A stretch of DNA of 64,000 nucleotides, from assembly GCF_000019905.1 (NCBI RefSeq), contig NC_010556.1, positions 522,001 to 586,000 of the forward strand, in the 5' to 3' direction. Under the pieces are notes generated by a model that saw nothing but the letters and a program-made list of their open reading frames with translations, made no database searches and had not been told where the DNA came from. Numbering within the stretch: position 1 is the first letter of the stretch; every line of letters starts with the position of its first letter. Made by a program: the position numbers and the translations under genes. This document shows positions 26,734-38,762 of the stretch, one piece after another. This DNA is from Exiguobacterium artemiae 255-15 (GTDB taxonomy: Bacteria > Bacillota > Bacilli > Exiguobacteriales > Exiguobacteriaceae).

Positions 26734-26806
26734 GATTCTGTAGCTCAGCTGGGAGAGCGCTACCTTGACAGGGTAGAGGTCGCTGGTTCGAGCCCAGTCA
26801 GAATCA
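26734..26806 (+). tRNA. tRNA-Val (anticodon GAC), copy 1
   Basis: 73-base cloverleaf: acceptor GATTCTG/CAGAATC plus discriminator A; D arm GCTCAGCTGGGAGAGC; anticodon arm CTACC-TTGACAG-GGTAG giving GAC; TTCGAGC T-loop between GCTGG and CCAGT. The CCA end is not encoded (TACC follows). Reads GUC and GUU codons. Identical to the copy at 37237. Confidence 0.95.
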
Positions 26807-37236: not shown

Positions 37237-37309
37237 GATTCTGTAGCTCAGCTGGGAGAGCGCTACCTTGACAGGGTAGAGGTCGCTGGTTCGAGCCCAG
37301 TCAGAATCA
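37237..37309 (+). tRNA. tRNA-Val (anticodon GAC), copy 2
   Basis: Base-for-base identical to the tRNA at 26734-26806, again without encoded CCA (TACC follows). Both copies share the flanking ATCAT and ATACC, so ATGATTCTG/CAGAATCAT could pair as an extended precursor stem. It is a separate transcription unit with its own promoter and terminator. Confidence 0.95.
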
Positions 37310-37401: not shown

Positions 37402-38424
37402 CTATTGAATTTCTAATCGAAGGTCGCCCATCTTTGTCCAACCGGCCATCGTCGTCATGCGGTAAAAGACGAGCGTCAAGACACCGGGAAGGACGACGCC
37501 GGTTGCAAAAAAGATCAGGAACGCATTAAAACCCTGATTAACGAAGATGTTGAGTGGGGCAATCATTGAATTTAATCCGAGACCCGCAAGTTCATAAGGG
37601 ACTTCAAGTGAAAGAACAAGTGTGGCGATGGGTGCCGAGATCATCGCGGCCAGGAACGGAGCGACGACAAGTCTTGGATTCTTAACGATGTTCGGAAACT
37701 GAACCTTTGGTGTGACGAAGAACGAAGCAATCAAACCGCCGGGATCTGTTTGACGATATGCCATCAATGTAAATCCGACAAACTGAGCTGAACAACCGAT
37801 TAAAGCAGCGGCACTGGCGACCGGGTCGAGTTGAAGGGCGATTGCGAGTGCAGCCGATGAAGCGGGTGACATCAATAAGACACTAAAGATAAGAGCAATA
37901 ACAAGTGATGTTGCAATCGGTGAAGACTCGACGGACGCAGTAACCATTGCGCTGAATCGTGTGAGGAGAGGTGTTGTGACGGCAGCGGCACCAAGACCGG
38001 TAAAACCGCCGGCGAGAACAGCACTGACCGGGATGACCATCATGTCGAATTTTGTTTTCCCTGTCATCCGTTTTCCGACGAAGACGGCCACAGCAGCTGC
38101 GAGTAACGCACTGATTGGTTGACCCGGTACGAGGACAAGACCGGCATCCGTCGGTTGAAGTGCGGCTCCGCCAATCGTCGCGGCAATCATCGCACTGAAT
38201 AAGACTAAGGTGTTTCCGCCAAGCTGATAAGCAATTCCGGCTCCGAGTGCGGGGGCGAGTAAGACTTTGGCGACGCCGCCGATTGTCAGTAACATTTCAA
38301 TATGTAAGAGATTTCCGAACGTCTCAATCAATAATCCTACCCCTAACGTCACTAACACGGCATTTGCCATCCCGGCAGATACTTTCACCATTCGATCCAT
38401 CGCATATTCTTTCAACTCACTCAT
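37402..38424 (-). CDS. PTS EIIC-like membrane protein (PTS_EIIC_2 / PfoR family)
   Basis: Polytopic membrane protein of 340 residues with about nine or ten helices rich in Gly/Ala (GGVAKVLLAPALGAGIAYQLG, in part; LLMSPASSAALAIALQLDP; LNIFVNQGFNAF). It belongs to the stand-alone EIIC group related to clostridial PfoR. No EIIA/EIIB is encoded nearby, so sugar phosphotransfer is not supported; proposed roles are transport or sensing, with unknown ligand. A structured leader with a terminator hairpin lies directly upstream. Confidence 0.8.
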   Translation of the reverse strand: MSELKEYAMDRMVKVSAGMANAVLVTLGVGLLIETFGNLLHIEMLLTIGGVAKVLLAPALGAGIAYQLGGNTLVLFSAMIAATIGGAALQPTDAGLVLVPGQPISALLAAAVAVFVGKRMTGKTKFDMMVIPVSAVLAGGFTGLGAAAVTTPLLTRFSAMVTASVESSPIATSLVIALIFSVLLMSPASSAALAIALQLDPVASAAALIGCSAQFVGFTLMAYRQTDPGGLIASFFVTPKVQFPNIVKNPRLVVAPFLAAMISAPIATLVLSLEVPYELAGLGLNSMIAPLNIFVNQGFNAFLIFFATGVVLPGVLTLVFYRMTTMAGWTKMGDLRLEIQ

Positions 38425-38446: not shown

Positions 38447-38610
38447 ATGAAAAAAACCTATCCGGTATCGGATAGGCGCCAGTATTCCTGCGGGCGCCTC
38501 ATTCGATGCATCGAAAGGAGGGCCCAAAATCAATTCCGAAAATCAGCGGAAAAGGTTTCAGTCCCTCGAGCATAGAATAATCAGTCGGCCAGCAATGTGG
38601 TTTACATACA
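38447..38610 (-). ncRNA. structured 5' leader with terminator, unassigned class
   Basis: Read on the minus strand: a long-range GAGGG/CCCTC stem (38567-38563 with 38522-38518) enclosing a CCG/CGG hairpin, a perfect palindromic hairpin at 38515-38502, a GGCGCC-N12-GGCGCC stem (38498-38475), and a terminator CCTATCCG-ATAC-CGGATAGG with an 8-base T-run (38476-38449). The terminator and GGCGCC stem share two bases and could be alternatives. A weak promoter (TTCACG-17-TATGTA) lies upstream near 38630. It resembles no riboswitch I can name. Confidence 0.55.
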
Positions 38611-38762
38611 TAAAGTGTATTCCCCTCTCCGTGAATTTTTCTAAGCCTAACACGGGTAAGATGAATAATCAATATTTTCTGACAATTTATTTTTCGTGAT
38701 TTTTGAACTTAAAATCAGGGGAAAGATAAGAATGGCATAAGTTGAACATTGGAGGCGGTTTC

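Follow-up and report, generated by a model that had tools for sequence, protein, structure and literature searches.

A probable isoleucine-codon attenuator in the leader of a PfoR-like PTS_EIIC_2 transporter gene of Exiguobacterium

Leader peptides in the control of ilv-leu genes

The ilv-leu leaders of Staphylococcus aureus and Listeria monocytogenes are reported to be peptide attenuators under CodY (PMC5794164, PMC5864092). The S. aureus ilvD attenuator encodes a peptide of 26 aa with three Ile codons followed by two Leu codons, and it responded to Leu. Among the derepressing changes obtained by selection were a Leu-to-stop change in this peptide and loss of the terminator (PMC5794164). In Listeria, start-codon and ribosome-binding-site (RBS) mutants of rli60, which abolish translation of the leader, lowered ilvD expression (PMC5864092).

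The leader described here precedes a gene for a membrane protein of the PTS_EIIC_2 family and lies on the minus strand of the window, that is, the whole stretch of 64,000 nucleotides of Exiguobacterium DNA that was analysed. An initial annotation had described four ordered stems in this leader and had proposed that it is a new riboswitch or protein-binding leader. The stems are real, and the leader is very probably a ribosome-mediated transcription attenuator that senses charged isoleucine (branched-chain amino acid, BCAA) tRNA. This reading is based on a conserved open reading frame (ORF), control codons and their spacing, covariation of alternative helices, computed switching, and a leader common to brnQ and ilvD.

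Architecture of the leader

All four stems are present where they were first placed. In the long-range stem, GAGGG (38567-38563) pairs with CCCUC (38522-38518) and encloses an inner hairpin; it is followed by the palindromic hairpin, the GGCGCC-N12-GGCGCC hairpin (38498-38475 (-), loop CGCAGGAAUACU) and the terminator (Table 1). The T run that had been counted as 8 residues has 7. The terminator does share two bases with the stem before it (CC, 38476-38475), and the overlapping stems support the earlier view of a structured regulatory leader whose expression platform contains a terminator. When the whole leader was folded, z was -2.25 and 1 of 200 shuffles was as stable.

The first description missed a further complementarity, between the 3' strand of the first stem and the 5' strand of the GGCGCC hairpin. 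This alternative helix appears in the minimum free energy fold of the leader. The leader can be written as five segments that pair as 1:2 (-19.3 kcal/mol, z -3.1), 2:3 (-19.2 kcal/mol, z -3.7), 3:4 (-13.0 kcal/mol, z -2.4) and 4:5, the terminator (-13.9 kcal/mol, z -5.4). The palindromic hairpin was considered as an independent switch element and rejected, as in Exiguobacterium it forms the tip of helix 2:3 and other genera do not conserve it.

Table 1. Features of the leader and of the gene that follows it (positions in the window)
Feature	Positions	Strand	Remarks
CodY-box-like site AATTGTCAGAAAATA	38673..38687	(-)	adjoins the -35 upstream; 2 mismatches of 15 to AATTTTCWGAAAATT
Probable promoter	38644..38672	(-)	-35 TTGATT 38672-38667, 17-nt spacer, extended -10 TGTTAGGCT (TAGGCT 38649-38644); read from the sequence
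Shine-Dalgarno region GGAGAGGGG of leader ORF	38622..38630	(-)	from the sequence
Leader ORF MYVNHIAGRLIILCSRD (17 codons + TGA)	38558..38611	(-)	from translation; missed by the initial annotation
Control codons ATT ATT (Ile Ile)	38576..38581	(-)	17 and 14 nt before segment 1
Segment 1	38556..38567	(-)	5' strand of 1:2 hairpin; contains stop codon TGA
Segment 2	38518..38529	(-)	pairs with segment 1 or segment 3
14-nt palindrome UUCGAUGCAUCGAA	38502..38515	(-)	apical part of 2:3 hairpin in Exiguobacterium
Segment 3	38492..38500	(-)	pairs with segment 2 or segment 4
Segment 4	38474..38480	(-)	3' strand of antiterminator 3:4; overlaps terminator 5' strand
Intrinsic terminator (4:5)	38450..38477	(-)	stem 38477-38456, then T run 38456-38450
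Regulated gene PTS_EIIC_2 (PF13303, PfoR-like)	37402..38424	(-)	membrane protein, 340 aa; Pfam E 8e-87

A consensus promoter scan did not list the probable promoter, which scores under its threshold. The match of the adjoining CodY-like box was equalled in none of 60 dinucleotide shuffles of the upstream region, and most leader-bearing loci have such a box within 1-3 mismatches (shuffled mean, 4.9 mismatches). The predicted site at its promoter makes the PTS_EIIC_2 gene a putative member of the CodY regulon. The other PTS_EIIC_2 paralogs of the Exiguobacterium source genome lack the leader; one of them (L144, C1:846400-848600) has a CodY-box-like sequence, TTTTTTCAGAAAATTC, upstream and no attenuator. 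CodY control may therefore be wider than the attenuator within the family. In many Bacillus PTS_EIIC_2 promoters (upstream regions L050-L110), a cre-like sequence, TGAAAGCGTTTTTA, lies beside the CodY-like box, which suggests additional control by CcpA. The window also has two tRNA matches of equal score (26734-26806 and 37237-37309 (+)), the second of which is on the strand opposite to the PTS_EIIC_2 gene, shortly beyond its 3' end.

A conserved leader ORF rich in isoleucine codons

The leader ORF starts upstream of the first stem and runs into it, so that its stop codon falls inside segment 1. An Ile/Leu-rich ORF is found at the same position in Exiguobacterium, Sporolactobacillus, Niallia, Oceanobacillus, Heyndrickxia and several Bacillus species. 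Peptides of the same design encoded upstream of PTS_EIIC_2 orthologs include MKTHAQHGLLIIIRLRD, MKNRMSVQADIILIINT, MKIKANTLPIIILILCS, MEGVSNIIRVNGLIRIILRLRT and MRVREQSSIIIIINLLC, each ending at a stop codon. Their N-termini vary in sequence and length, while the frame, the Ile run and the stop in or beside segment 1 are constant. A fixed rule (Shine-Dalgarno sequence and an ATG ORF that ends at segment 1 and has at least two Ile codons) is satisfied by 30 of 35 leaders and by 0.46% of shuffled upstream sequences. Near the end of the ORF, 104 Ile codons stand in frame versus 12 and 16 in the other frames. The ORF, with its Shine-Dalgarno sequence, thus appears to be conserved as coding and would be translated.

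The last Ile codon lies 8-22 nt, mostly 11-17 nt, before segment 1 across the leaders, which places a putative run of control codons at a fixed distance from the first switching segment. Isoleucine is not the only amino acid that the leader could sense. In the peptides Leu comes second in frequency (106 codons versus 121 for Ile), the Ile pair of the window ORF is flanked by a CTG or CTA codon, and the S. aureus ilvD attenuator is itself Leu-responsive; the leader might thus sense mainly Leu, or all BCAA, rather than Ile. This is somewhat unlikely, since the Ile codons about 11-17 nt before segment 1 are the most constant block of the ORF and a ribosome stalled one step later, at the Leu codon that follows, would mask some of segment 1.

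Mutually exclusive helices

The alternative helices were examined in an alignment of 34 distinct leaders in which all five segments were placed. Segments 2 and 3 can pair with each other (in Bacillus, GUUUGAGUCC with GGCGCUCAAAC; in the window, GGGCCCUC with GAGGCGCCC), and the resulting helix 2:3 excludes both 1:2 and 3:4. Its four core pairs are standard in all 34 leaders and show compensatory types, namely GC/UA/AU at one pair, UA/UG/CG at another and AU/GC/GU at a third. Taken together, 2:3 and 4:5 have 91.6% of cells paired and 46 double-changed cells versus 16.3 in shuffles, a score that is lost when the alignment register is slid, and RNAalifold proposed this pair of helices without guidance. 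The signal for 1:2 and 3:4 is weaker (84.0% paired, 21 double-changed cells versus 9.4 in shuffles), and in the register used, the window's genus has A-C at pair 21:66 of helix 1:2, which counts against it. On partial transcripts of the window leader the two alternatives are balanced, at -36.0 kcal/mol for 1:2 and 3:4 and -36.1 kcal/mol for 2:3 and 4:5.

Covariation across orthologous leaders, whose absence the initial annotation would have taken as refuting its claim, is thus strong, and the alignment argues for a putative antiterminator and terminator that exclude each other. In Psychrobacillus and Paenisporosarcina, the PTS_EIIC_2 genes (L092, L094, L096, L097) are preceded by a terminator-like remnant alone (e.g., GCTCATCCTATCGGAGGGCTTTTTATTT); the ORF and segments 1-3 are gone, as if an attenuator had decayed.

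Related leaders upstream of brnQ and ilvD

The gene brnQ encodes a branched-chain amino acid carrier. BLASTN found a second copy of the leader in two Exiguobacterium genomes (E 1e-31 and 1e-28), in each case before brnQ. The downstream gene matches TIGR00796 (E 4e-119), and the brnQ leader encodes an Ile-Ile peptide and has a CodY-like box of its own. From the leaders of this kind, and not from rli60 sequences, a covariance model (R1) was built. R1 found diverged copies of the leader in six more Exiguobacterium genomes. The three that were inspected all stand before brnQ (confirmed by a family model in one) and encode the peptides LIVIKSRD or LIVIRTRD.

Outside the family, in another genus, R1 matched leaders that precede ilvD, and these are assigned by Rfam to rli60 (RF02414); ilvD was confirmed by a family model as the downstream gene for two rli60-family loci. 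The L191 peptide MTNLNTQHQPTTSNIIILLYSLGLER fits the published S. aureus description (26 aa, three Ile then two Leu codons), and we infer that the genus is Staphylococcus. In all 30 RF02414 loci (Bacilli), R1 picks the rli60 site at the same place, with E values of 3e-6 to 0.03, and this match is one-directional. RF02414 itself scores up to 144 bits at rli60-family loci and gives no match at E up to 10 to the window leader, nor any in the Exiguobacterium genomes listed. The case for common descent is therefore carried by the reverse search with R1. One R1 match (L180, E 2e-5) lies away from the rli60 leader of that genome and lacks the segments; it was judged to be chance or terminator-like. 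The window leader is best read as a divergent relative of the rli60/ilv-leu attenuators with new target genes. The presence of the same leader at brnQ and of a related one at ilvD points to ribosome-mediated attenuation that senses charged tRNA.

Ribosome position and a proposed mechanism

The effect of the ribosome was computed for 30 leaders by constrained folding of transcripts that end before the 3' arm of the terminator. The footprint of the ribosome was assumed to extend 12 nt beyond the first base of the codon in the A site. Segment 1 is then essentially free when the ribosome stands at either Ile codon and covered when it stands at the stop codon. Moving the ribosome from the stop codon to the first Ile codon raises the probability of helix 3:4 in all 30 leaders (mean 0.29 versus 0.93); with the ribosome at the stop codon, 2:3 beats 3:4 in 22 of the 30 and fails to do so in 8. 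The ilvD leaders behave alike when folded as five segments. The mean probability of 3:4 is 0.92 with the ribosome at Ile and that of 2:3 is 0.99 at the stop; 3:4 is higher at Ile than at the stop in 18 of 18, and 2:3 wins at the stop in 18 of 18. For full-length Exiguobacterium leaders at equilibrium, the terminator is preferred in nearly every condition. Control would therefore have to be kinetic and decided during transcription, as is normal for attenuators.

The following mechanism is proposed. RNA polymerase would transcribe the leader with a ribosome translating the 17-codon ORF behind it. A shortage of Ile-tRNA would hold the ribosome on the Ile codons, some 14-17 nt ahead of segment 1, which would then be free; 1:2 would form and 3:4 would follow. 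Once 3:4 has formed, the terminator 4:5 would come too late, and read-through would allow the transporter to be made. When Ile-tRNA is plentiful, the ribosome would reach the stop codon and cover segment 1. Segment 2 would then pair with segment 3, and segment 4, now unpaired, would enter the terminator and so end transcription. At high BCAA and GTP, further repression would come from a CodY-type site at the promoter. Termination in vivo, isoleucine as the signal and binding by CodY are predictions of this scheme.

A four-segment attenuator of the classical type would behave differently, since its leader terminates when it is not translated (super-attenuation). The Listeria start-codon and RBS mutants agree with it (PMC5864092), and their lowered expression conflicts with a strict five-segment device because a free segment 1 would not predict a drop. 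The full-length equilibrium folds computed with no ribosome likewise favour the terminator. However, a four-segment scheme does not need the covariation of 2:3, and ilvD leader folds taken before segment 5 is made, again with no ribosome, have 3:4 at 0.93. An early stop codon would free segment 1, so derepression is expected under five-segment logic, in agreement with the S. aureus mutant. The four-segment alternative is thus rather improbable for the window leader.

Stalling might also depend on the peptide itself and not on the supply of amino acids, as in the antibiotic-induced leaders (macrolide/ketolide type) found before erm, ABC-F and hflX genes. Arg-Leu-Arg occurs in peptides of the sister genus and of Sporolactobacillus (LLIIIRLRD, ILRLRT), and an RLR upstream ORF before hflX has been described in Bacillales (PMC8632094). 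This motif is missing from the window peptide and from most Bacillus peptides, whereas the Ile run is general, and the other genes that carry the leader, brnQ and ilvD, are BCAA genes, which makes antibiotic-induced stalling very improbable. The riboswitch of the initial annotation, with a metabolite-binding aptamer upstream of the terminator, is hardly credible even though the stems are ordered, terminator and antiterminator overlap and Rfam has no family for the leader at E up to 10 (obvious chance matches aside), which bears out the annotation's view that no known class fits. Upstream of the stems stands an Ile-rich ORF that looks translated and whose Shine-Dalgarno sequence, frame and Ile codons are kept while nucleotides vary, the leader alignment contains no conserved unpaired core beyond the switching segments, and the related S. 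aureus and Listeria ilvD leaders are reported as peptide attenuators.

The PTS_EIIC_2 protein

The AlphaFold model of the PTS_EIIC_2 protein (pLDDT 77) has its best PDB matches among EIIC proteins of the PtsG/IICB type, with weak similarity (E 2.7e-5 to 3e-4, TM 0.54-0.66); a PDB search with the protein sequence gave no real match. EIIA and EIIB domains are absent from the protein. The titles and abstracts found on PfoR with isoleucine or CodY, and on PF13303, held nothing about function, and no link of the family to amino acids was found in the literature on PF13303. The one paper found that names PF13303 reportedly concerns fructooligosaccharide uptake by gut bacteria. Genomes of genus f10/g11 (Staphylococcus-like) mostly have 2-7 PF13303 paralogs, above most other Bacilli.

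Since the leader otherwise precedes genes for a BCAA carrier and for BCAA synthesis, the PTS_EIIC_2 gene product most likely serves BCAA nutrition. More tentatively, and with rather more doubt than confidence, it is proposed that the PTS_EIIC_2 (PfoR-like) proteins of this clade are importers (or exchangers) of isoleucine or BCAA. An EIIC fold of the sugar-PTS type, free of EIIA and EIIB, would in that case have come to serve amino acids, and it would share with brnQ and ilv-leu its control by CodY and a five-segment Ile-codon attenuator. A possible riboswitch becomes a readable sensor, and an orphan family of membrane proteins gains a likely context in BCAA supply that is hidden from the protein sequence.

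Comparison with known systems

As in the enterobacterial trp, his and ilv attenuators, the window leader has putative control codons for the sensed amino acid, and the position of the ribosome would select the fold. It differs from them in its five segments and its independent sequence, and stalling would free segment 1 in the window leader whereas it masks segment 1 in trp. T-box leaders, which precede Bacillus ilv-leu and amino acid transporter genes, also sense tRNA charging and control BCAA genes, but the sensor of the window leader would be coded as a peptide. Rfam scans for T-boxes and riboswitches gave nothing relevant in the window or at 40 other loci, mostly PTS_EIIC_2 genes (20 paralogous PTS_EIIC_2 loci and 20 loci with no clear leader). 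Elsewhere in the window there is a TPP riboswitch (RF00059, 54921-55031 (+), 70.1 bits).

The most similar known leaders are those of rli60 (RF02414), represented by Listeria ilv-leu. They share with the window leader a short BCAA-rich peptide, a stop codon beside the first stem, an antiterminator that overlaps the terminator, and upstream CodY control (PMC5864092), which is predicted for the window, and the hairpin GGACUGGAAC / GUUUAAGUCC matches. The sequences of segments 3-5 are unlike, RF02414 does not match the window leader, and the published rli60 scheme has four segments. Whereas rli60 precedes the ilv-leu operon, the window leader precedes PTS_EIIC_2 and its sibling copies precede brnQ.

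The S. aureus ilvD leader likewise combines CodY with an attenuator, and such leaders can be drawn with the same five segments, which switch when folded, but it controls BCAA synthesis rather than a transporter. Its published antiterminator pairs GAAUGG with the poly-U tail, whereas the window scheme pairs segment 3 with segment 4. The published S. aureus and Listeria ilv-leu folds differ from the five-segment scheme. That scheme now has covariation behind it, fits the S. aureus genetics and could be tried directly on those leaders.
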